Part shown: piece by piece, positions 3,601 through 63,097 of the stretch
How the letters are laid out: the number at the start of each line of letters is the position of its first letter
Numbering within the stretch: the stretch's first letter is position 1
Source: Chrysomallon squamiferum
Lineage: Eukaryota > Mollusca > Gastropoda > Neomphalida > Peltospiridae
Assembly (NCBI GenBank): GCA_012295275.1
Contig: CM022679.1
Span: 6,361,157 to 6,425,156, forward strand
DNA: 64,000 bases
Direction: 5' to 3'
Translations under genes and position numbers: made by a program
The notes under the pieces: model-generated
The model's database searches: none
What the model saw: the letters and a program-made list of their open reading frames with translations, nothing else
Told to the model about the DNA's origin: nothing

Positions 3601-4457
3601 GTGCAACAAAAACATTATGAAATAACACATTAAACTGGAGCATCACTGATCTACAAGCACTTTTCTGCACACACACCCTATAATAGATAAAAACATTCTA
3701 GTATGTGTGTGTGGTGTGTTGTGTAGTATTATTACAACAATAAAAAATGTATACATACACCACTCATATCCTTTAAACTGCAGCTGTATGCCATGACCTG
3801 AAGTTGGATTTTCAATATTCAAGTATATAACTCTGAAATTTATGAGCATATACACTAATTTTTAAAAATATATAAAAAAAAGGTTGTTTAAAAAATAATA
3901 ATAACAATAATAATGAAAAATAAAATAAAATACTAAAGCCAGTTGAGAAACTGGATCCTTACTTGATATTTAATTCAAAACTTGTATTATAAAAGATAAT
4001 TAAAAAAACAAACAACTACAAAAAAAACCATAACTATGTTATTATTATAATATGATATCATATTAATTCTGTAGCAATTTATTTACTGCATTTTTAATTT
4101 GATGTTACACTTAACCCCCCAAAAAAGAAGTAATAATAAAAATAAAAATAAAAATAATAATAATAATAATAAATAATAATAATATTTTTTGATAAAATTG
4201 GCAGTTTTGTGTTATGCTAAGAGATATTCCTTTTTCAGAGATAAATGAAGATGCATTCAAAAAGAAAACTCTGAATAGAATAAATTATTTACTATTTAGA
4301 TATTATCTATCATTCTACCATTTATGTTTATCTATGATTTAAATGTCTGTTATTATTGTGCAGTAATCTAATATCCATTATCATCCCTTGAATATCTGCA
4401 TTATTAACAGATGGTTGTCTTTTGCCTTACTAATTACTTCATTCCTTATAAATAAAA

Positions 4458-4579: not shown

Positions 4580-4846
4580 TATAGCTAATACTTAGGATAA
4601 AACAAATGTCATTTTCTGATAATTTATATAATACTATTAAGTATTATTGTCAATTTGGAAGAGGAAGAAATTATTGACTGGTTCGTCGTACCTCTTCATT
4701 ATATCGTATGAAGCGGAATATCGTTTAATAAAGCAGTTTATACTTTCCGGTTCATGTTGGAACATTATTTGTTTTGTTTTTATGTTTTTATTAAAACATA
4801 AATTTTTGTTTTGTTATTAAATCATAAATTTAGAAATAAATTCAAA
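4580..4846. promoter_or_regulatory. Shared divergent promoter, arrestin-domain gene / CPSF4
   Basis: Only 267 bp separate the two start codons, which point away from each other, so both 5' UTRs and core promoters must fit here unless there are upstream non-coding exons. No TATA box is placed convincingly for either gene. An ETS-like CTTTCCGGTTC lies near 4743-4753, a motif often found in TATA-less housekeeping promoters. The regulatory role is inferred from geometry. Confidence 0.5.
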
Positions 4847-7800
4847 ATGCAGGAGATTGTAGCTCCAGTAAATCATATTAAGTTTGATATAGAAATTGCT
4901 TTAGAACAACAGTTAGGTTCTCAACCATTGCCATTCCCTGGAATGGATAGTAAGTCATAACAAAAGTCTTTTTGCAAATCGTTAAATCATAAATGAACTT
5001 TTTTTCTCTTACATACATATATATATATAATCCGTACCATCAAGTGTACATTAAATGATGTATCAAATGCACTGGAATGTGATTTACTTCTCTTATAAAG
5101 AAAAACAATAATAAAAAATAAATAATACTAATGTATATATGTAGTCTTTTCTTTAGGGAAATTAGGCTGCAACATCGAACGAATATGAACAACTTACAAG
5201 CAACCAATGTTTGTTAGAAAAATTCACAGAGTAAAAGTGGTAGATTTCCTTTTAGCATAAAGTCATAAACAACATAAAAAGAATAAACAAAAAACCCTAC
5301 TCAAAAAAAAATTCGGAATTTTGTTAATGTATGTATAAATTGTCCTCAAAATTGTTAGAATGTTATGTAAGTGGAATTTGTTTGAAAAACCATCCAAAAA
5401 CCAAAACAAAGTTATAGAATTATAAAATATATTAAGTCATTTGAGATAAATAGTAAATTCTGAGCCTTCATATCTAATTTGTAATATTCAGATTAAATAT
5501 TTTTTTAGTAATATTTTTTAATCTTTTTTTATTATGAATGTTATCTTGTTATAACATATAATGTTTGTGTCCATCTCGTTATTTTTCATTTTAGCTAAAA
5601 CAACATCTAATTTAACAGATTTCCTTTCTCATAAATATATACCAATACATAAATATAATTATGTAAACAATATAAAGCAAACCTAATAACTACTAATATA
5701 ATATATGATGAGTATTTTTAAACATATTCGTTCATTATTTTTCTTGGCAAAATGTACATTCAAGATATAGATCAGAAGAAAAACCCCAGTTATTTAAATC
5801 AAATTTAGTTTTTGGTAAAAAATTAGTTAATAATATTTGAATCAAATAGATATATAAATAAATAAAACAAACAAACAATTGACTAACTGAAATGGTAGTT
5901 GACCAAAAAAAAAAAAAAAAAAATAAAATAAAAATAAAATAAAATAATAATAATAAAAAAATAAAATAAAATGATTACATAGTTAAAAAGAGACAACATA
6001 ATTCAAATAATTAATAGTTTTGTTTGTATTATTATCAGAATCTGGTGCTGCCACATGCACATTCTATCTACATTCAATATGTAACAAAGGATCAGCTTGT
6101 CCGTTCAGACATGTACGTGGGGATAGGACTGTAGTGTGCAAACATTGGCTAAGAGGACTCTGCAAAAAGGGAGATGACTGTGAATTCTTACATGAATATG
6201 ACATGTCCAAAATGCCAGAATGTTACTTTTATTCCAAATTTGGTAAGTTTGTGAAAATATAATTTTTAGAAAAACATCATTTTTATTGTTGGACATTATT
6301 ATAAAAATTGTTATAATTTATTATTATTAATTTTTTATTTTTTTAATGTAAAATAACATTTTTGTATCACTTGTTTGTTTCACTGTTATCACAATTACAA
6401 AAATTATTTTAAATATTGTGTTGAATTTTTATTTTATTTTATTACTTCATCACTTTACTTGAGATTTTTAAATTTATTTTCAGTTATTTAAAAATATTTA
6501 TTTTATTATTGTTTATAAGTTAAATATATATTTGCACTTCATTGTTTATTTTCTCTATTTACAGGTATATGTAGTAATAAAGAATGTCCATTTTTACATA
6601 TTGATCCTGAAAAAAAAATTAAAGATTGCCCTTGGTATGATAGAGGATTTTGCAGACATGGTAAAATAGAGTTTTTACGTCTTTTTTTTCACTTATATTG
6701 TTTTTGAGCATGTGTTGTATGTGTATTGTTAATATTTCACGATCACAATCTTTTCATGTTGGAATGACCTTGTCAGAATTCTCACCATTAAGATTATTTC
6801 TCCAGTGATTATCATTGCACACATGATTACAGTTATATGTCTGGGTTATCTTACAGATAAATTAGACCAAAGTAAGAATTGAATTTAATGTAGTTGTTAA
6901 TACAGGTATAACAGTTGCACCATATATCATCTATATTTCTAAATTAATAATTCATAATATTCTTTCACATAACTGTAGGTGTGCAGAAAAATATGAACTT
7001 GTAAACATTTAAAATTTGAAGTGTAATTTCCTGTCTAAAATGATTAAAAGATGTTTACTTTGAGTATTCAGCTGATTAATTAATCATTTAAAAAAACAAC
7101 AATATGATTTTATTATTTTCATATTACTGATTTATTTAGTTGTAGATTATATAATATAACACTTTCTTTTATTTCCAGGTCCAAATTGCAAGAACAGACA
7201 TGTGCGGAGAGTTATCTGTCAGTGTTATCTCAATGGCTTCTGTATAGAAGGTCCTGACTGTGCATTTAAACAGTATGTAGAGGTTTTAATTAACACATAT
7301 ATTGTTACCATGGTAACATAGCTCTGTGTTATTGTGTCTTGAGAAACATAATAACATGCTTGATCATAGATCTGAGTCCTCATTTTTAAAAATTCCTTCA
7401 ATATATGATGAACTGATAAATAAATAACCTTTCACATATACCAAAATACTGGAATATCTTAATTTTTGTATTTATCTTCATTTGTAGTGATTTAGTGTGT
7501 GATCATTCTGAATTAGGCATTTAATTAAAGAAGCATTTAATTAAAGTTTCCAAACTTTTCTCCAGAAATTGTTTAAAGCCCTGGCATTTTCAAAATTTAT
7601 GCCCAAAGTATTTTATTAGTGGTTGATATAAAATATTACATATTAAGTAAAATTTAAGCATAATAAATCTTTCTTCTCCAGAAGAATCAGCTCATAATAA
7701 AAACATGCACTTTTGTTAACCATGCTGAACTTCTGAGATTATGTAAATCTTACAAGTATCTGCTTACTTTTATATCTGATCCTACATATTGTCTACAGAA

Positions 7801-9379
7801 AGCTTTTATTATTTTTAATTTTTAAAACATTTTCAGATATATTTTAAAATTTTACATTACAGTCCAAAGCATGATCTGCCAACCCCTGATCCAATAGAAC
7901 GATTACGAAAGGCATCCATTGTTTGCCATTTTTGTGGAGAATCGGGACATAAAGCTATACATTGTCACAAAATGCCAGCTGACATGAAAGCAGAAACACA
8001 AGAGGTTAGTGAAAGCATGTAAAAAAAAAAAACATTCATTTTAAAAAAAAAAAAAGGAAGGTAATTTTCGTTAATTCCCTGCTTGTTTACCTTTTTATAG
8101 CTACCAAGCATTTTTATATTTTTGATATGATTAAAGATGATTTGTTGTAGTAATTTATTACTTGATTTCTTTTGTTCAGCTATAAATAAATCTATACTGA
8201 AAAAAACATACCATAAACACACAGCACCTGGTCACTTTGCCAACAGATGTTTGGCTGATGGACATTTAGCAGAATAGACAAGTGACCAAATGGTCAAATG
8301 GCTGAGCTGCCAAATATTTTCCAAGCATTAAAATATTTGATTAAATAGCATTTGAATTTGGCCTTGGGAAAACATGGCCCACAGTCTTTAAATATTTTAT
8401 AAAATATTGATTTAAACTGCAATTTTTAATTAAATTACAATACAATTAATTTCTTTTATTGCAATCTATGTGTAATACAGACATTTTTATCATCCAGTTA
8501 TGTTAATTTTTTAATTGTTTTCATCATTGATTTTATAAGCAAGTTATAAAGTAGAAAAAAAATGAATGTTAAAAAGAAGAGGTAAAAATAACAAACAATA
8601 TAAAAAAAGGCCATGTGTCTGTCAGCATAATGTTCATCTGGTACGATGCCAATAGGTGACATGTATGCTGGTCACCTCTCCGGCCACAAAACATGCATAT
8701 AAACACAAAAACATATATATACACACACACAAAATGGAGAGATATTTGTATATAAATTTTGGTTTGTTTTAACTTTCAGCACAACCGAGACACATGGACT
8801 TCCAGACTCATGGATGATGACAGACGCCCTATACAAGAAGTTACTTGTTACAAGGTGAGAATATAATATATACCAAGATCAATGTAATACACACCCATAC
8901 ATTTTGACATGTCAGAATTGGAAATTTTCTGTTTCATTGATCATCAAAATTCTCAATATAAATTAACAAAACAAGTTTGGCTACTAAATAATAAAATAGT
9001 TCAGCTAGTTTATGCAAAATTCAGGTTATTGATTATTACATAATTATTGTCATAGTGCTTGCTTGTGGATTATTAAATTTTATTGTCTGTTTGCCAAAAC
9101 CAAATTAATCATTAATAATAAACTCAACTAAATTCTTTTTTTTTTTTTTTTTTTATAAAGTTAAACCATTTGTTAATTAAGACCAAGTATACACTAGCCC
9201 TTATATTCAGCTTGTTGATATTTTGAAATACTTAAGAAACTATTGTGGACATGAACATCAAATAATCTTTACCACTGTATTTAAACATTTTTAATTTTCA
9301 GTGTGGAGAAAAGGGTCACTATGCCAACAAATGTACAAAGGGCCATCTAGCTTTCCTGAGTGCTGGATTAGGAAAATAA
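4847..9379 (+). CDS. CPSF4: Cleavage and polyadenylation specificity factor subunit 4 (CPSF30), complete, 7 exons
   Basis: Exons 4847-4949, 6039-6242, 6565-6660, 7179-7272, 7863-8004, 8780-8854, 9302-9379; all phases join to a 263-aa protein (human about 269). The protein is the RNA-binding zinc-finger subunit of nuclear CPSF, which recognises the AAUAAA signal with WDR33 and contacts Fip1. The N-terminus, with [22 protein letters not shown], is nearly identical to vertebrate CPSF4. Five CCCH fingers follow: the first is C41-x8-C-x5-C-x3-H59 ([19 protein letters not shown]), the second contains [16 protein letters not shown], then [40 protein letters not shown] and [20 protein letters not shown]. 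There are two CCHC knuckles, [14 protein letters not shown] (187-200) and [14 protein letters not shown] (236-249). Human CPSF4 keeps only the second; as I recall the fly orthologue has two. The C-terminus [12 protein letters not shown] is conserved. Gene identity is secure. Confidence 0.97.
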
Positions 9380-25956: not shown

Positions 25957-26760
25957 CTATGCAGCTTTCTTAGTTTTAGACTTTTTGTCGATGTATGAGT
26001 TGTAGAAGAAATGGGCAAAGAGAATAAAATAACTCAAATACATCAAGGAAGAATATTTTAAATTTTCGTAGGTCTGTTCGCAGTATTCTCCTTTTGCCTT
26101 GACCATGTACACGGAAATATTAACAATACAACCAACCGTCATTTGCAACAACTGCAACGACGTGATGATTATGTTCACGTATTTAGGAAAGTTGACCCGC
26201 ATGGCTCGGCAAGCGTAGTAAGTATACATAAACGAATGCACTGTGAAGTTCATAACCATGAACCACCTACCGGCAGCAGTGTGGGATGCATAGCTGTACC
26301 ATACATAGAGTAAAACAGTGACATGGTGATACCAGTGAAGGAATATTAGCTGTTGTTTCCTCAAGACGATAAACAGTGTATCTCCTAGCTCAAAAACTTT
26401 CGAAACTGTAAATAAACAACACCAAAAACCGGTGGGTCCCATAAAATAGGACGGCACACATATAGAATATTGATATCCTTTATTGTTCAATGTTGTATAG
26501 AGTTCTGGTATCGTGCGGATGGCGCCAATTATGCTGAAAATTGCTAAAAGACCACTCCAGATCGCCAAAGCCGGTCGTAACCCATAGCTGGGCCGTTCTT
26601 TCATGTACATTTGGGCTCCAAAAATGACGAGAACGTACATTCCGGAGTAGATAAACGAATCAGTCCATCTCTCCAACATGAACTTGAGAAACGAAGGCTC
26701 GTCGAAGGATTTTTCGAAGTGGAATACATATGAATAGTTATGTTCTCCCATTACTGCCAT
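25957..26760 (-). CDS. Very-long-chain fatty acid elongase, ELOVL6-like, single exon
   Basis: Complete 267-aa frame with no intron. ELOVL enzymes are ER membrane 3-ketoacyl-CoA synthases that condense malonyl-CoA with acyl-CoA; the ELOVL3/6 branch extends C12-C16 saturated and monounsaturated chains. Family signatures in order: KVFELGDT (121-128), the catalytic histidine box HWYHH (142-146) and NFTVHSFMYTYY (171-182), with several hydrophobic spans. The tail ends KKSKTKKAA, a KKxx ER-retrieval signal. Motif wording (LHWYHHVTVLLYVWYSY) and length match ELOVL6 (about 265 aa) better than ELOVL2/4/5, but ELOVL3 is not excluded. Vertebrate ELOVL6 has introns, so intronless organisation suggests intron loss or retroposition. 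No frame damage is visible, so it is probably functional. Subclass assignment is from memory of the family. Confidence 0.93.
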   Translation of the reverse strand: MAVMGEHNYSYVFHFEKSFDEPSFLKFMLERWTDSFIYSGMYVLVIFGAQMYMKERPSYGLRPALAIWSGLLAIFSIIGAIRTIPELYTTLNNKGYQYSICVPSYFMGPTGFWCCLFTVSKVFELGDTLFIVLRKQQLIFLHWYHHVTVLLYVWYSYASHTAAGRWFMVMNFTVHSFMYTYYACRAMRVNFPKYVNIIITSLQLLQMTVGCIVNISVYMVKAKGEYCEQTYENLKYSSLMYLSYFILFAHFFYNSYIDKKSKTKKAA

Positions 26761-27120
26761 CTTGTTTGTAGTAATTCAGCGTTTCACTCACGTGCTTGAC
26801 TAATTGCAAGAAAAACCCAACACACACCCGCGTTTCTAGGATAAATTACCACACTGCTTTCTTTATCGAGAGGTCGCAATGTACACACCGGGCAACGACG
26901 AATGTGATTTGTTGAATGAATGAACTGAGTTCAGGTAGCCAATCAACATCGTGGATGCATTTGACAGTCGATGAATGTGCTTTCTGCACGACAGTTAACG
27001 GGATAGCATTAACGTGCTTGTCTGGTCACGTGCATGATCACGTATATGTCTGTTAAGTTAATTTTGTTTTGCACCAGTATACCCACGTGTATAAATAAAC
27101 ACACAGGTATGTCACAAGCC
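26761..27120 (-). promoter_or_regulatory. Upstream region of the elongase with three CACGTG E-boxes
   Basis: CACGTG palindromes at 26789-26794, 27027-27032 and 27084-27089, plus a near match (TCACGTA) at about 27038, in DNA where roughly 0.02 such sites would be expected by base composition. A CCAAT motif lies near 26938. The region is more GC-rich than its surroundings. CACGTG-type sites bind bHLH-ZIP factors (SREBP, MondoA/ChREBP-Mlx, USF), which control ELOVL6 in vertebrates. The regulatory role here is inferred. Confidence 0.5.
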
Positions 27121-29665: not shown

Positions 29666-31977
29666 TGCGCGTGTATGTGTTATGTATATATTAATGCTTG
29701 TGTAGGCGCATACTCCTATGTTTAAATACTTTATATTTCGTCTGCTTCAAAGGATGTACACGTTTCACATAAATTATGAAATATTGTATGATTTGAACAG
29801 TTAAATCTTTCATTTTTCTGAATAAAACCCAACATGTTTTCCTACAACAACGACAATACAACAGCTAGTGACAATCGTGATCGTAATTAAGTCAAACTAT
29901 ATAAAAAGAAGTTAATAACGACAATAATACTTACATATATAATTTTTATTGTACTTGATTATTTGCATTATACATACAAGTGGATTAACTGAGATTAACC
30001 CATTACGGTTTAATGCAGTTAATACCGTCTGATTTTTTAGCTTAATACGGTTATAATATTGAATTGTTATAACTACGAATATTGAAGCCAATAGAACATA
30101 TCTTCTGAAAATGCTGCACAATGGAAAAGCCACAAGACATATGCATATACATACATACATACTCACGTAAATACATGCCATACAGACAAAAATACATATA
30201 CACACACATATAAATACATTCTTAAATGGAATATTAGGAGTATCAACTATTTCAAAGTTCACTTCAGAAAAAAAACGAACCGAAAAAAAAAAAAAAAAGA
30301 GAGAAGAAAACAATGATGTTGGTACAAGTTTAAAATAAATAATCGTTTTACATTGTCTTAACATTATTGACTGAACAGTTACAACAGTTGCAAGCTAATT
30401 AACTTATTCCATTTTCTCGCTTAGTTAGGGGTATATTGCACGAGTTCCATGGGACGTTTATAAAGATGGTGCAACGACCTAGATTACAGTTCTGCGTGCA
30501 CGACGGTGTGCAATATGTAAAATAGCTCATCCTTTTTTAACGGATGACTGATGAGGCAATAACAGTTTCCTGTCACTTATTTTGTTTTACCTTCGAGTAG
30601 GTACCAGCGGACAAAGTTTTAAGCTGCAATAACTTACTTTTTATAACCGAAGATATTAATGTTTATCTTGATCGGTTTAGGAAATATACTATTTTAAAAC
30701 TGAAACTGTACATCATAATTATTTGCTTTACCTTACAACCGTCAAAGTTTAATGCTTTGAATTTTATAATTTCCACAGCTTGTAGCAAAAATATTATTCC
30801 TTCGATTTAATTCAGATAATTTATACATGATCCTTATCTAACTATATTAGACCCCTCTTTGGAAAAATAGTAAAATGGAAAGATTGCGATGATTATACGA
30901 ATTATTATTTAGCTTCTTCTTTTGAACAGAAAGTTTTGCTGATGCCAAAAAAAACCCCCAAAACTTGGGAAAAGAAGTGGTGTGTGACGCGAGCTACAAC
31001 AAAACGTTTCAGTTTATAATTGTTTATTTTATTATTTCTTATTTTTGAGGAACTTGTTTTTTAAAATACAGTTCGAAATCTAACTCTTTTAAAATAGCTT
31101 TTTAATTGTTTATACATCATTAGCAATATACTGTGCTAAATTTACATGCAAACATAATTGTACAAAATGATGTACCTTCTGAGATGTTATGTCATCAATT
31201 TATAATCTTCAGACATTTTTGACTAGTTTGATGCTCCTAAGATCAAATCATTGCACATCGTCTCTCACTCATTCAAATCATCGCAAAATAATAATAAATT
31301 TCTATATTATAAATATTTATCTATTTATCCCTAACATTTTGTGTTATATTTGGAGATTTGACATAAATATTGTAAGTCTTTTATGGGGGATTTTTTAATA
31401 AAAAGTATTTTTTCTTGAAATTAAAACTCATAACTCTGAGATACTGAGCACGTTTATCCACATTATCCCATCCGGTTTCACTTTAACTGTCTACTGAACG
31501 CTAAAGAGTGTTTGTTCATTCTTATTATTGTTATTTGGATTATGAGTAATTATCGTTTTTCTTTTTTTTTAATTATTATTTATTTAAATTTGTTTGTTTA
31601 TTTACTTATATATTGATTTACATTTAGAATTTTTGTTTATTACCTTGATTATTTGTTTGACTTTTAACAATTAGCTTTAACAATTCAATTTAAACTTAAT
31701 TTTATTTATTTGTTTCTTCACATAAACATTGCTTGGATTTAAAAAAAAAGAAAAGAAAAAAAAAGAAGACTATTCAATTCTTTAAATTTTGTTTTACATA
31801 TTTGTTCCTTGGGATAGAATTGCTTGCATTAATTATTTTTTCTTGTTCTTCTTTTTTAAATTCAACTTAAATTTTATTTTATTTATTTGATTCTTGGGAT
31901 AGTGTTGCTTGCATTAATTTTTTTCTATTCTTATTCTTCTTTTTATTATTATTTTTATTAATTTTATTTTATATTCT

Positions 31978-32303
31978 GTACCTTTGGTGAACAGTCCCCC
32001 AGAACTCAGTTTTCAAGTACGAGTTCCGTATTATCCACTCTTCAGGTGGGGGTGTCATCACTCACCAGGTGACTCACTGTCGCTGCGTTCAAGGTACAGA
32101 GACGAATTTCAAGGAGTCTTGGGGAAACAGCGAGGAATAATCAAGGCTGTCTGTCCCGATGCCAAATTTGAGTGTCCCGTTAAAATATTTAAGCACCTCC
32201 ACATTCCAAAATCAAGTTTAAAAATTTTGGCGTATGGAGGGTATAGGGTACCCCCATCCCGGCTTCTCGAAATTAACGTCGATTCTTTGTCGTCGCTTAT
32301 ATA
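31978..32303. repeat. Array core, copy 1
   Basis: Core runs from GTACCTTTGGTGAACAGTCC to the GGCTTCTCGAAA block, then CTTATATA at 32296-32303 (TATATAAG on the minus strand). The plus strand is open from about 31984 to 32352 but has no ATG at the start of the shared frame. A 6-bp stem (GAACTC 32002-32007 / GAGTTC 32021-32026) lies near the left end. Nature of the core is discussed under findings. Confidence 0.8.
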
Positions 32304-32873
32304 CTCAGCCGAAGATCGGTGTCAAGGAAACGCTGTTAGCCGTGGCGTCTGAAATAACGTTCGTCCAGAACGAGTTGTGTTTTTGTCTTCGAAATGATTT
32401 CGTACTATAATTTACTGTCGTGACATTAGACTGTGATACATATACGTCTTTATTGGTGATATGATTCAGTTTCTCTTATATATTTTTTATCGGTATAATG
32501 TGAAAAGTGTCTTCGTATTGATTAAATAAAATAGGTTGCAAAATAGCATAATCTATAGTTTAATGCGTTTTAAAATACAATTTAAAATCTATAGTTACCT
32601 TTTGACATTGCTCAGCAGCAGTTTACAAAATACTAAGCAGTGTAGAATATGAAAGTTCCAACATTTTTACTCCATGCATTGCTAATATAAATAAATAACA
32701 AAGAAACAAAACACCGAGAAACACAGATTTAAAGTGCGAGTTTTCACAGAACTTTAAATTACTAAATATAGACTGTGACGTAACTGTCTACGATAATGCA
32801 AAATAGATACGCTTTCTCAACAATACACACTCAACTTTCACCAAATAAACTGTGATTTAAAATATTTAAGCTT

Positions 32874-32908
<35 letters not shown>

Positions 32909-32923
32909 TTTGTTTCCTTGTCT

Positions 32924-32959
<36 letters not shown>

Positions 32960-33330
32960 AGAGAGACAGATACACCTTTGGTTGTTGTTGTTCTTCTTTT
33001 TCAGCCTTCAATAAACTGATCTAAAATATTTGAGCTTGTTTTCTGGGGTTTATTTTTAGTAGGGTTGTTATTTTTATTTATTTGTTTATTTAATTTTTTG
33101 TTTATTTATTTATTTTTTTGTTGTTGTTTTTGTGTGTTTTTCTAATATAGCTAGATAGATATATTACCTTTTGTTGTTCTTCTTCTTTTTCATAATCTAT
33201 ATGTATGCTTACATATTTTTTACTCTTTAATGTATAATTATTTATTTACTTATTTTTTATTCATTTATTATCATCATCATAATCAAACGAGAGAAATGCT
33301 GCGTTTATAATATGGGCACCATATGTATAT

Positions 33331-33369
<39 letters not shown>

Positions 33370-33551
33370 TTGACTAACTTACTTATTTTATTTTTCATTT
33401 ATTCATGTCACTGACTTTGTTAATTGATTTTAATTTTTCTTTATATTCCTTTATTCTGTGGTTTTATTTTATTTTAATTTTTATTTCATTTTATTTTATT
33501 TATTTTTTGTTTCTTTGTTTTTATTTTTTGAGATAATACTGCATAGATTAC

Positions 33552-34004
33552 TTGATATTTATTTTATGTTCTGTACCTTTGGTGAACAGTCCCCCAGAAC
33601 TCAATTTTCAAGTACGAGTTCCGTATTATCCACTCTTCAGGTGGGGGTGTCATCACTCACCAGGTGACTCACTGTGGCTGCGTTCAAGGTACAGATTCGA
33701 ATTTCAAGGAGTCTTGGGGAAACAGCGAGGAATAATCAAGGCTGTCTGTCCCGATGCCAAATTTGAGTGTCCCGTTAAAATATTTAAGCACCTCCACATT
33801 CCAAAATCAAGTTTAAAAATTTGGCGTATGGAGGGTACAGGGTACCCCCATCCCGGCTTCTCGAAATTAACGTCGATTCTTTGTCGTCGCTTATATACTG
33901 AGCCGAAGATTGGTGTCAAAGAAACGCTGTTAGCCGTGGCGTCTGAAATAACGTTCGTTCAGAACGAGTTGTGTTTTTGTCTTCGAAATGATTTCGTACT
34001 ATAA
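33552..34004. repeat. Array core, copy 2 (frameshifted relative to the others)
   Basis: Core starts about 33571; the minus-strand TATA box is at 33890-33897. One base is missing in an A/T run near 33819 (AAAATTTGGCG against AAAATTTTGGCG), which shifts the plus frame for the rest of the ORF. The codon at the ATG position of copies 3 and 4 is ATA here. If the plus frame is a gene, this copy is broken. Confidence 0.8.
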
Positions 34005-35074
34005 TTTACTGCCGTGACATTAGCTTCTGATATATATACGTCTTTATTGGTGATGTGATTCTGTTTTTCGTATATATTTTTTATCGGTATAATGTGAAAA
34101 GTGTCTTCGTATTGATTAAAAAAATAGGTTGCAAAATAACATAATCTGTAGTTTAATGCGTTTTAAAATACAATTTAAAATCTATAGTTACCTTTTGACA
34201 TTGTTCAGCAGCAGTTTACAAAATACTAAGCCGTGTAGAATATGAAAGTTCCAACATTTTTACTCCATGCATTGCTAATATAAATAAATAACAAAGAAAC
34301 AAAACACCGAGAAACACAGATTTAAAGTGCGAGTTTTCACAGAACTTTAAATTACTAAATATAGACTGTGACGTAACTGTCTACGATAATGCAAAATAGA
34401 TACGCTATCTTAACAATACACACTCAGCTTTCACCAAATAAACTGTGATTTAAAATATTTGAGCTTATTTCTTCTTCTTTTTTTTTTTTTTTTTAATTTG
34501 TTTGTTTCCTTGTCTGTTTTTTTTTTTTTTTTTTTTTTTAAATAGATAGATAGACAGATACACCTTTGGTTGTTGTTGTTCTTCTTTTTCAGCCTTCAAT
34601 AAACTGATCTAAAATATTTGAGCTTGTTTTCTGGGGTTTATTTTTAGTAGGGTTGTTATTTTTATTTATTTGTTTATTTAATTTTTTGTTTATTTATTTA
34701 TTTTTTTGTTGTTGTTTTTGTGTGTTTTTCTAATATAGCTAGATAGATACATTACCTTTTGTTGTTGTTCTTCTTTTTCATAATCTATATGTATGCTTAC
34801 ATATTTTTTACTCTTTAATGTATAATTATTTATTTACTTATTTTTTATTCATTTATTATCATCATCATAATCAAACGAGAGAAATGCTGCGTTTATAATA
34901 TGGGCACCATATGTATATTTATTTATTTATTTATTTATTTATTTATTGACTAACTTACTTATTTTATTTTTCATTTATTCATGTCACTGACTTTGTTAAT
35001 TTATTTTAATTTTTATTTCATTTTATTTTATTTATTTTTTGTTTCTTTGTTTTTATTTTTTGAGATAATACTGC

Positions 35075-35434
35075 ATGGATTACTTGATATTTATTTTATG
35101 TTCTGTACCTTTGGTGAACAGTCCCCCAGAACTCAGTTTTCAAGTACGAGTTCCGTATTATCCACTCTTCAGGTGGGGGTGTCATCACTCACCAGGTGAC
35201 TCACTGTCGCTGCGTTCAAGGTACAGACTCGAATTTCTAGGAGCCTTGAGGAACCAGCGAGGAATAATCAAGGCTGTCTGTCCCGCTGCCAAATTTGAGT
35301 GTCCCGTTCAAATATTTAAGCACCTCCACATTCCAAAATCAAGTTTAAAAATTTTGGCGTGTGGACGTTATAGGGTACCCCCATCCCGGCTTCTCGAAAT
35401 TAACGTCGATTCTCTGTCGTCGCTTATATATTGA
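35075..35434. repeat. Array core, copy 3 (longest intact ATG frame of unit type 1-3)
   Basis: Has an ATG giving a 119-aa frame that starts MDYLIFILCSVPLVNS, a short hydrophobic leader. TATA box on the minus strand at 35423-35430. No similarity to a known family was recognised. Confidence 0.7.
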
Positions 35435-37361
35435 GCCGAAGATTGGTGCCAAGGAAACGCCGTTAGCCGTGGCGTCTGAAATAACGTCGCCAAGAACGAG
35501 TTGTGTTTATACCTTCGAAATGATTTCGTACTATAATTTACTGTCGTGAAATTAGCTTCTGATATATATACGTCTTTACTGGTGATGTGATTCTGTTTCT
35601 CTTATATATTTTTTATCGGTATAATGTGAAAAGTGTCTTCGTATTGATTAAAAATATAGGTTGCAAAATAACATAATCTATAGTTTAATGCGTTTTAAAA
35701 TACAATTTAAAATCTATAGTTACCTTTTGACATTGCTCAGCAGCAGTTTACAAAATACTAAGCAGTGTAGAATATGAAAGTTCCAAATTTTTTACTCCAT
35801 GCATTGCTAATATAAATAAATAACAAAGAAACAAAACACCGAGAAACACAGATTTAAAGTGCGAGTTTTCAAAGAACTTTAAATTACTAAATATAGACTG
35901 TGACGTAACTGTCAACGAATATCCAAAATAGATACGCTTTCTTAACAATAACACAGTCTACTCCAATTTTTACTAATCAATGACAGCTAAAAAAAAGAAA
36001 ATATAATATTACTAAAACAGCTAGATCCTGAAATAATTTATCCATATTTACCTTTTTCTTCTATTTTATTATTATTTTTTATATATATATATATATATAT
36101 ACGATATTTAAATTAGATTATGAATGAACTGATTTAGTTAAAAATAGAACCAGCGTCTGGCGTAAAAATACACCAATCTTCAAAAGAGTCACACAACTTT
36201 AGCTGTGGATATATACCAATTTCTAAAAATAAATAATAGCTTGGGGAAAAAAAGTAAATAAATAAATAAAAATACTTGTGAAATATAGAGATACTGAAAT
36301 AACTTAGTTATGAAAAAATGTATAAATAATCCAAACATTAATTTATTTATTGAAATGAGTAAAAATCAATTCAGTAGAATATTCTAGTTTATTGGTTACA
36401 AATTTTCGTATTACAAGTTATAATTACATAAATATCTGTAACAGTGTTTTCTTAACAGTTAACTTGATCAGTTACTGTTTTAAAAATTGCATTTCAACAA
36501 AAGTAAACAAGAGAAGCAATAAATAAATAAATGAATATGAACATAGTGTTACATTTTTGTTTTTAGTTATTTATTTATTTTTTGATATTATTATATATTA
36601 TTTTTTAATTAAGTACCAAGTGACAAAATATTGTGAAGTGTTGTTTAATACTATGTTATGTAGAGGTTGTCGTCACTATCATGCAAAATGGAGGTTTTCG
36701 AGCGAAAAGTGAGGTTACTAGAATCTCTTTCTGTATTTTAAGTCAACTTTCACCAAATAACCTGTGATTTAAAATATTTGAGCTTAATTTTTTTTTTCTT
36801 CTTTTTAGTTTGTTTCTTTCCTTGTCTGTTTGTTGGTTTTTAAATATAGATAGATAGACAGGTATACACTTTTGGTTGTTATTGTTCTTCTTTTTCAGCC
36901 TTCAATAAACTGTGATCTAAAATATCTGAGCTTGTTTTGTGGGGTTTATTTTTAGTAGGGTTGTTATTTTTATTTATTTATTTATTTATTTTTTGTTGTT
37001 GTTTTTGTATGTTTTTCTAATATAGCTAGATAGATACATTACCTTTTGTTGTTCTTCTTTTTCATAATCTATATGTATGCTTACATATTTTTTACTCTTT
37101 AATGTATAATTATTTATTTACTTATTTTTTTATCTATTTATTATCATCATCATAATCAAACGAGAGAAATTCTGCGTTTATAATATTGGCACCATATGTA
37201 TATTTATTTATTTATTTATTTATTTATTTTGCATTTATTCATGTCACTGATTTTGTTAACTGATTTTAATTTTTCTTTATTTTTCTTTTATTCTGTGGTT
37301 TTATTTTATTTTTATATTTATTTTATTTTATTTTATTTTATTTTATTTTATTTTATTTTAT

Positions 37362-37392
<31 letters not shown>

Positions 37393-37438
37393 TTTTTTTT
37401 TTTTTTTGGTTTGTTTTTATTTTTTGATATAATACTAC

Positions 37439-37981
37439 ATGGATTACTTGATATTTATTTTATGTTCTGTACCTTTGGTGAACAGTCCCCCAGAACTCAG
37501 TTTTCAAGTACGAGTTCCGTATTATCCACTCTTCAGGTGGGGGTGTCATCACTCACCAGGTGACTCACTGTGGCTGCGTTCAAGGTACAGATTCGAATTT
37601 CAAGGAATCTTGGAGGAACTGCGAGGAATAATCAAGGCTGTCTGTCCCGCTACCAAATTTGAGTGTCCCGTTCAAATATTTAAGCAGCTCCACATTCCAA
37701 AATCAAGTTTAAAAATTTTGGCGTATGGAGGGTATAGGGTACCCCCATCCCGGCTTCTCGAAACTGACGGCTGTTGTTTGACGCAGCTTATATACTCAGC
37801 CAAACTGGGCGTCAAGGTAGCTTTGGTGTCTGAAATAACGTCGCCCAGAAGAAGTTCTGTTTTTGTCTTCGAAATATTTTCCTTTCATAATTTACTACCG
37901 CGATATTACCGTATAACATATATATGTGTATATTTGCAATATAATTCGCTTTTCCTGTATGTAGCTTTTATCGGCCTCTGA
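37439..37981. repeat. Array core, copy 4 (diverged unit, 180-aa frame)
   Basis: Starts with the same MDYLIFILCSVPLVNS leader and stays open for 180 codons, with a different C-terminal third. TATA box on the minus strand at 37787-37794. The 290-bp core is about 95% identical to copy 1, while the next 500 bp drop to roughly 75%, so the core has been better conserved than its flank. Confidence 0.7.
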
Positions 37982-38399
37982 TAAGCATTTTCTTGAGAAT
38001 GTTTAAAGAAAGGTCAAAATGAAGCAAAATCTTTTGTTAAATTCGTTTTAAAATACAGTTTAAAATGTATTATTCGCTTTTAACAATAATGTGTGATGGT
38101 TTGTATTTCATTAAACACTGTATAATTTTAATCTGCATCATTTTACAGCAGAGAAATATAAAAATATATGTAAAAGCAAATAAATAAAGTACACACAGCC
38201 ATTCTTATTGTATTACAATATACTTTGACGGTTGTTGTAATCAGCGTGTGACGTAAAGCTACACAAACATTCAAGACAGTTACGCTTTCTTAGTTGTTGT
38301 CAAATTAGTCCAGTTTATAATAGCTGAAAATAATATAAATTTAATACGGAAATAGGAAAATACAATTTAATAACTTCTAAATACTGTTGTTTAAATCTA

Positions 38400-38401
<2 letters not shown>

Positions 38402-38458
<57 letters not shown>
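38402..38458. repeat. (AT)n-(T)n simple repeat
   Basis: About 15 TA units followed by about 28 T residues, just inside the inverted fragment. Confidence 0.9.
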
Positions 38459-38485
38459 CATAAACTGGGAGGTATTCGGTATATT

Positions 38486-38530
38486 TTTTTCAAAACTGCG
38501 TTTTGGGGGACTGTTGACCAAAGGTACATA
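38486..38530 (-). repeat. Inverted fragment of the array core end
   Basis: Read on the minus strand this gives TGTTATGTACCTTTGGTCAA followed by CAGTCCCCCAAAACGCAG, matching the left end of the four cores with about 5 mismatches in 45 bp. It lies about 1.06 kb from the same sequence in copy 4 and faces it, like a terminal inverted repeat. On the plus strand it contains a perfect hairpin CAAAAC-TGC-GTTTTG at 38491-38505. Confidence 0.8.
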
Positions 38531-39212
38531 ACAGTAAAAGTAATAATAATTATTATATAATAATAGTAAACCAGTATTTATTTACGTAAACGCATGTTCA
38601 GTTGATGTAGTTAAAGTAGAAACGGGTGAGATACGTAGATAAAAATGTATTGAATATCTTCCAAACCTGAGAGCTGAAAAAAAAAAAAAAAAAAAAAAAA
38701 AGCAAAGGATGAAAAGAACGAAAATTAAAAATTAAAAATAAATATAAAAGTATGATTTAAAACAATTGCAGTGTACTTTACTCATACTACGAAAAACAAT
38801 TTGTATGTGCAAGATATATGAACTATATGTCTATGCTCTGCACAAATTGTCGTTAAGCCTACCAAATAGATCGACCCTCTTAAAAAACCCTTATTATTAT
38901 TTATATGCACTTTATTACTAGCCTGCTCTATAATTAATTATATAACAGTTTATGCTAGTGTTCATTTTTCGTTGCAAAGTGTAGAATGTCCATTGAAAGT
39001 ACTGTTAACTTATACTGATAAAAAACACTAAAAGGAATTACTGTTAATGTTGCAATAGGATATAAAACTAAAAACTATTAATTAAGTTTATAATAGTAAA
39101 TACTTATTTATTTTAAACTTATATTAATTATCATAGCATTTTCTTGTGTACATATAAATATATGTAATATTATATAGGGTTTGAAGCAGGGAAATCAAGA
39201 TCAGAATTTATT

Positions 39213-39783: not shown

Positions 39784-40041
39784 TCAGAAAAATTTGGGTA
39801 GCCTAAAATTATTATTCGTGCACTTATTTTTAATTTTCACTTTGGTTCTGAAAAGTGGACAGTTTGTAACAGTGTTCCAAAATGTCTGAACATGTTTACA
39901 TAACCAAAAAATGTACATTAAATGTTCACTAGACATTTGACAAAAGTCACATTTGTCGGAATCTCTTACACCATATAGCACCAAATACTTATTTGTTGTT
40001 AAAATAAATAACAAGATCTTGTACTGAAAATATCTAAACAC
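39784..40041 (-). pseudogene. LINE retrotransposon relic (C-terminal zinc-finger part of the reverse transcriptase ORF)
   Basis: An 85-aa minus frame contains LVLYGVRDSDKCDFCQMSSE, then HLMYIFWLCKHVQTFWNTV. This is the C-x2-C ... H ... C ... fW pattern found after the reverse-transcriptase domain in many non-LTR elements (zf-RVT type). The polymerase domain itself is absent and no poly-A tail or target duplication could be delimited, so this is a 5'-truncated, dead fragment. Assignment rests on motif recognition only. Confidence 0.65.
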
Positions 40042-40086
40042 TGTGTTTGTAATTAGCTTTAACGGATATTATTTATTTATTATTGC

Positions 40087-52858: not shown

Positions 52859-63082
<10,224 letters not shown>

Positions 63083-63097
<15 letters not shown>

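Follow-up and report, generated by a model that had tools for sequence, protein, structure and literature searches.

A tandem array with a conserved core

The DNA analysed here, hereafter the window, is a stretch of 64,000 nucleotides from the gastropod Chrysomallon squamiferum (assembly GCA_012295275.1, contig CM022679.1, positions 6,361,157 to 6,425,156 of the forward strand). It contains a tandem array of four direct repeat units with a common core of about 310 bp, and the base pairs of the first 125 nt of this core are kept by compensatory change. The array is laid out as follows.

31963..33557, + strand: unit 1; core 31963-32272, body to 32825, then AT-rich spacer; 31963 is the left edge of the similarity
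33558..35089, + strand: unit 2; head-to-tail copy
35090..37453, + strand: unit 3; holds an extra ~790 bp
37454..38488, + strand: unit 4; core ends at 37763, diverged body after it; changepoint 37764
38489..38545, - strand: inverted, truncated copy of the module start; 49/57 nt identical; z 19.9

The unit starts at 31963, 33558, 35090, and 37454 are spaced by 1595, 1532, and 2364 bp; the extra length of unit 3 comes from ~790 bp (about 35952-36742) absent from the first two units. Units 1-3 each consist of a ~310-bp core, a ~550-bp body, and a ~700-bp AT-rich spacer; GC content in 200-bp windows reaches 0.47 over the cores and does not exceed 0.2 in some parts of the spacers. The 57-bp inverted fragment matches the core start at 49 of 57 nt, with an alignment z of 19.9 against shuffles. 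With up to three mismatches allowed, the 24-mer at the core start occurs five times in the window, and none of 100 shuffles contain one. The four direct units and one inverted fragment with a common core given in a preliminary description of this DNA are thus all found. The left flank of the array was compared with the spacers by local alignment (z 3.1 and 1.9); when anchored at the core start, one of the three spacers beats all 25 shuffles and two do not. A 117-nt direct repeat (79%; 31773-31882 and 31856-31972) adjoins the array on its left.

Unit 4 shows how sharply the core is set off. Its core differs from those of units 1, 2, and 3 at 12/310, 10/309, and 15/310 positions (3-5%) and its body at 187/533, 190/533, and 196/534 (35-37%), with body divergence of 27-30% close to the core and 47% farther away. 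The best changepoint is 37764, and every point within 2 log units of it lies in 37760-37764. The preliminary description had put the core of this unit at ~95% and the adjoining DNA at ~75% identity; the contrast is real, but the fall is stronger than described. It had also named a uniform divergence of core and flank among the observations that would speak against the element, and this pattern is not seen given the sharp edge of unit 4. To the left of unit 4, similarity continues into the spacer with no fall, because the spacer there belongs to the tandem repeat. Within the window, the broader statement that the core is better conserved than its flanks holds to the right of the unit-4 core, but neither to its left nor, at a significant level, among units 1-3. 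In these three units, variable columns are rarer in the first 138 (3/138) than in the body (41/557; p 0.03).

Related arrays and a wider motif family

A whole-genome search, which the preliminary description had proposed as a check, found the same core and body in further arrays on the contig of the window (C15, 7.8% of the bases among the 404.6 Mb and 22 contigs searched). A 1001-bp query from unit 1 gave at least 49 genome matches, those of the window among them (40 scored of 189 candidates), and 20 stretches were fetched from these matches. On C15, arrays at 7.76, 10.5, 14.81, and 14.90 Mb (A7.76, A10.5, A14.81, and A14.90) contain both core and body, at unit lengths that differ from those of the window, and a single complete unit lies at 15.1 Mb.

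Among 20 full-length units, core divergence is below body divergence in every one of the 190 pairs, whether the two units come from different arrays (159/159) or from the same one (31/31). These units span nearly the whole profile, and partial ones (such as A7.76 at 8868 and A14.90 at 6465) were excluded. Among 11 representative units, between-array distances are 4-16% for the core and 21-42% for the body, except between the neighbouring arrays A14.81 and A14.90 (core 1.9%, body 2.5%). Two edge units resemble unit 4, namely A14.81_10153 (core 2.6%, body 20%) and A10.5_18159 (core 2-4%, body 13-15%). The core distance from unit 1 grows along C15, from 4-5% at 7.76 Mb through 8-10% at 10.5 Mb and 12-13% at 14.8-14.9 Mb to 15% at 15.1 Mb. 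At five places outside the window-like arrays (A2.49, C5, C6, C7_26.88, and C8_14.0), the match to the whole-unit profile is confined to the first ~140 columns. Inverted copies close three arrays (the window array, A10.5, and A14.81), and facing copies are present in these three as well as in the fetched stretches L016 and L029. As a separate observation, partial copies of the body occur in both orientations within the units of A10.5 (L011/L012; nhmmer, E 5e-12 to 6e-14 for the inverted ones), and a long imperfect palindrome may therefore be present in each unit.

The pattern GTACCTTTGGTNAACAGTCCCCCA, with up to three mismatches, marks 165 places in the genome (74 forward and 91 reverse, five of them in the window), and the reversed control marks none. 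Among the matches listed (100 of 165), 38 lie on C15, and the dinucleotide after GTACCT is mostly chromosome-specific: TT, TA, and TG on C15; GT mainly on C4; AT on C1, C7, C8, C9, and C13; and AA on many contigs. Motif spacing in these listed matches points to further tandem series, with seven places ~3.3 kb apart on C7, five 5.4-6.2 kb apart on C4, and five 3.8-10.6 kb apart on C1. An inward-facing pair of motifs, 436 bp apart, lies at C15:22843293/22843728 (L029). Fifty stretches (10 + 40) were fetched from the motif list, chosen for contig and motif diversity.

A base-paired module at the start of the core

Most copies keep ~125 nt that run from TTCTGTACCT to AGGTACA, with complementary ends (TGTACCT...AGGTACA). 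The bit scores in the following rows are those of a covariance model, R1.

31973..32100, + strand: module of unit 1; R1 159.5 bits; row of the model alignment
33568..33695, + strand: module of unit 2; R1 155.5 bits; row of the model alignment
35100..35227, + strand: module of unit 3; R1 159.9 bits; not in the model alignment
37464..37591, + strand: module of unit 4; R1 155.1 bits; row of the model alignment

R1 was built on alignment A1, made with MAFFT from 26 hand-picked copies and not fitted to a structure, with the structure drawn from the consensus fold. In A1, 91.8% of cells pair, a value that drops to 41-48% once the partners are slid, and both sides have changed in six pairs vs 2.8 +/- 1.0 in shuffles (2/500). 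The model gives 88 matches from 71 sources and covers the motif in 47 of the 50 fetched motif stretches; in the other three (L035, L037, and L060), only the module start is kept and R1 has no match there, and the inverted fragment in the window is likewise not among the matches. In the R1 alignment (77 distinct rows), both sides have changed in 14 of 32 pairs vs 7.4 +/- 1.5 in shuffles (0/500). Doubly changed cells number 54 vs 21.7 +/- 3.5, and with slid partners the counts never exceed 7 pairs and 26 cells.

The arms of the inner hairpin, P3, were also compared independently of any alignment (76 of 84 copies parsed, 37 distinct arm pairs). Duplexes of each arm with its own partner have a mean of -5.8 kcal/mol vs -4.9 +/- 0.27 when the arms are re-dealt (p 0.0006). 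Examples of such pairs are GAACTC/GAGTTC, TTAACTCA/TGAGTTAA, GATTCA/TGAATT, and GGATAA/TTATCC. An extra hairpin of the P3 kind, complementary by eye, is inserted in L031, L032, L044, L061, and L072. The consensus fold of 31 copies has an energy of -57.5 vs -38.1 +/- 4.6 in column shuffles, the best of 100 shuffles being -50.5. These 31 were kept from 44 rows; L035, L037, the inverted fragment of the window, and one L029 copy without a recognisable end were left out, as were identical rows and, for their duplicated hairpin, L031 and L032.

Downstream of the module, the core holds two further features.

32129..32141 in unit 1, also from 33724, 35256, and 37620, + strand: second conserved box, a form of GGTGAGGAATNAT; loose pattern
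32196..32240 in unit 1, + strand: hairpin-like stretch of the C15 type, second core half; consensus fold, no covariation

The GGTGAGGAATNAT box or a near form of it (a loose pattern, counted without a chance control) follows the module in 64 of 84 copies at a varying distance. The second half of the core has a consensus fold of -57.8 vs -30.9 +/- 4.5 in column shuffles.

Known families, coding potential, and transposon signs

The statement that no known gene, small nuclear RNA (snRNA), rRNA, tRNA, or transposon protein is recognisable in the core agrees with our Rfam, Pfam, tRNA, and protein searches, none of which gave a match to the core at cut-off. Rfam 15 (4227 covariance models) has no match in the window at the gathering thresholds. 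In permissive Rfam searches, sub-threshold matches lie outside the modules with one exception, queA on the opposite strand of the L041 module (20.7 bits against a cut-off of 52.6, E 1.9). ARAGORN with bacterial settings found no tRNA in the window, a search that covers tRNA-like folds, with heads of short interspersed nuclear elements that are no longer tRNA-like beyond its reach. Four core frames of the window match no Pfam family, and ten frames from other fetched places have three weak matches and none at the cut-off; no gene was recognised within the repeat units, judged by eye and by these 14 frames against Pfam. Seven candidate proteins have no protein relatives at E<=10, and the 22 variable columns of the core are spread 7/11/4 over codon positions 1/2/3. 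A protein-coding tandem gene was considered and rejected given the lack of a codon-position pattern, a Pfam family, or a protein relative.

A single transposon with terminal inverted repeats, spanning 31964-38543, was considered as well. One candidate target-site duplication, 8 bp long with one mismatch, flanks the whole array, and the chance of finding one is 0.46-0.56 among AT-rich pairs of positions within the slack allowed (0.019 for an 8-bp duplication at one exact pair of positions). Literal core strings have no match in viral_contigs, prokaryote genome_contigs, or PubMed Central (PMC) text, none of which hold animal genomes as such. Neither literal strings nor topic searches found the core element in print, and the matches of one 10-mer are in 35 papers that are unrelated, judging by the 15 titles listed. 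The suggestion that this is an undescribed element is supported by the lack of Rfam, Pfam, and protein matches.

Interpretation of the conserved module

We consider tandemly arrayed genes of a structured noncoding RNA family to be the most likely reading of these data, at a probability of about 0.5, with transcription and function putative. The compensatory changes in the first 125 nt favour selection on base pairing. The window array is one of several, and each repeat unit begins with a conserved, base-paired module of ~125 nt, followed by the second conserved box and, in the C15 subfamily, by more conserved sequence, all of which make up the 310-bp core; the remainder of the unit is taken to be a drifting spacer. 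Selection on the fold, most likely as a structured noncoding RNA product, would keep the module, and the arrays would be multi-copy genes with replaced spacers whose neighbouring units are also homogenised by unequal exchange and conversion. Such selection would account for the compensatory changes, the common start before unlike bodies, and the drop from core to body in several arrays, while local unequal exchange and conversion would account for near-identical neighbours and the small contrast among young units. A fold kept by compensatory mutation would place the module under selection, which implies that it does something; the family, its arrays, the core and body contrast, and the compensatory pairs of the first 125 nt are observed, whereas transcription of the module, its pairing as RNA and not as single-stranded DNA, and any particular function are presumed in this scheme. 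The preliminary description had offered two explanations, selection acting on the core and conversion confined to the core. The lower divergence of the core in all 190 pairs and the compensatory changes in the first 125 nt support the former, and conversion probably contributes. More tentatively, and with more doubt than confidence, the family could be a new class of structured noncoding RNA in an invertebrate, with on the order of 150 gene copies in array-specific tandem series, concentrated on one chromosome (38 of the 100 motif places listed), with a folded core of 125-310 nt that is kept as the spacers are replaced, and with no Rfam match.

Several observations weigh against a structured RNA. 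The 14 doubly changed pairs come from an alignment that was fitted to R1 and is hence biased towards the model; the copies are also related, such that covariation counts are not independent events and shuffles overstate independence. The second half of the core lacks covariation (3 pairs vs 2.1 +/- 1.2, 164/500 shuffles), the unit-4 core folded by itself is not stabler than its shuffles (z 0.07), and four of 11 outer-stem pairs are often broken (in 29, 34, 22, and 40 of 77 rows). The helices contain 147 G-U vs 52 A-C combinations, yet a single pair contributes 70 of these 147; for this reason, and because the structure was drawn on this strand, these counts do not decide between RNA and DNA. 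Upstream of the module, little sequence is common to the subfamilies (by eye), and consequently no promoter was recognised. The core and body contrast is not significant among units 1-3 (Fisher p 0.29, 0.41, and 0.62) or in the three full units of A7.76 (p 0.28, 0.30, and 0.85).

These last values speak for recombination alone, with conversion or unequal exchange keeping the core alike and the core edge lying where homologous tracts stop. The changepoint in unit 4, sharp to 5 bp, and the increase in core distance from unit 1 along the contig (4-5% at 7.76 Mb to 15% at 15.1 Mb) fit this explanation as well. We nonetheless judge it improbable, since the drop occurs near the same place in arrays megabases apart and in other edge units, the first 125 nt carry compensatory changes, and this stretch also persists on further contigs, where the bodies that follow it differ. 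That the contrast is nothing more than a recombination edge separating two elements with terminal inverted repeats was also considered and was overturned by the same recurrence of the drop in distant arrays. The main alternative to a structured RNA is a non-autonomous mobile element, in which the module would be a folding end recognised as single-stranded DNA by a transposase or Rep protein, active copies would be under selection, and tandem arrays would arise via rolling-circle or unequal exchange. Motif places are spread over many contigs, one start precedes different bodies (A2.49, C5, C6, C7_26.88, C8_14.0), an inward-facing pair lies 436 bp apart (C15:22843293/22843728), inverted copies end three arrays (window, A10.5, A14.81), and the module ends are complementary (TGTACCT...AGGTACA). 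Tandem repeats borne by miniature inverted-repeat transposable elements (MITEs) and Helentrons are also known, bivalves included (PMC9659126, PMC7492417, PMC12628747). This alternative must be set against the failure to recognise a transposase (frames of at least 90 amino acids in fetched stretches, by eye) or any Pfam match at cut-off among 14 core and array-unit frames (4 window, 10 elsewhere), the lack of a reliable target-site duplication around the array, and the lack of a facing core partner within ~2 kb beside nine single dispersed places. Compensatory change in the internal hairpin requires selection on pairing, though a folding DNA end would supply that. On balance, we regard a mobile element as less likely than a structured RNA but as its main rival. 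A regulatory or structural DNA element (promoter, enhancer, or insulator) borne in tandem duplications, which near some genes may act in cis, is very improbable: three fetched places do adjoin host genes (an S11-family exon in L016, a glycosyltransferase frame in L014, a peptide gene in L019), but no gene was recognised inside the repeat units (frames by eye; 14 against Pfam), and a protein-binding DNA site is not expected to show compensatory pairing.

If the product is an RNA, so large a family without an Rfam match would be missing from what is catalogued of animal RNAs. If the module is instead the end of a mobile element, a folded end could be traced as arrays arise, are homogenised, and spread along one chromosome. 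Under either reading, the contrast of core and spacer over several arrays is a natural experiment on selection vs conversion.

Comparison with known systems

5S rRNA and the U snRNAs are structured noncoding RNAs whose genes occur in tandem arrays. The window family resembles them in its short, conserved, folded unit, head-to-tail order, array-specific and fast-changing spacers, and dispersed copies; it differs in having no Rfam match or recognised promoter and only putative transcripts. McGurk and Barbash reportedly found in 2018 that double insertion of transposable elements seeds satellites, a route that would account for head-to-tail growth through unequal exchange but leaves the compensatory pairing unexplained.

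MITEs that carry or seed satellite arrays include miDNA4 of Xenopus tropicalis and Xstir, which share with the window family inverted end motifs, tandem amplification, and homogenised arrays (PMC9659126). The window family differs in its internal covarying hairpin, the lack of a demonstrated target-site duplication or transposase link, a unit spacing of ~1.5-6 kb, and an end that itself lies within each unit. The non-autonomous Helentron element Cg_HINE of the Pacific oyster combines a conserved flank with tandem repeats and stem-loops in a mollusc (PMC7492417); unlike in that element, the conserved start of the window family is itself repeated in every unit.

Other features and neighbouring genes

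Genes were seen beside modules in three of the fetched stretches. L019 holds two genes (3865-4080 and 7230-7445, - strand), 97% alike, for a 72-amino-acid secreted, cationic, cysteine-bearing peptide near two modules. The peptide start is signal-peptide-like by eye, it has no Pfam match, and it looks antimicrobial-type. In L016, an exon of the ribosomal protein S11 family (4635-4916, - strand) lies between facing core copies (2425 + / 8564 -), and in L014 a glycosyltransferase frame (PF04488; 4005-4499, + strand) extends over the start of an inverted copy of the module (3916-4045).

Elsewhere in the window, a remnant at 39784-40068 (- strand) has a weak match to zf-RVT, a retrotransposon zinc-binding family (E 0.0044, under the Pfam cut-off), and a Death-domain exon (PF00531, E 3.9e-6) lies at 62648-63097 (+ strand). 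An ELOVL6-like elongase of 272 amino acids is encoded in a single frame at 25957-26775 (- strand). By its relatives, the window is animal DNA, probably from a mollusc: the best relative is 88% identical, and the nearest named ones among the best 120 of 1893 matches are molluscs, namely Littorina (69%), Nucella (67%), and Patella and Octopus (66%).

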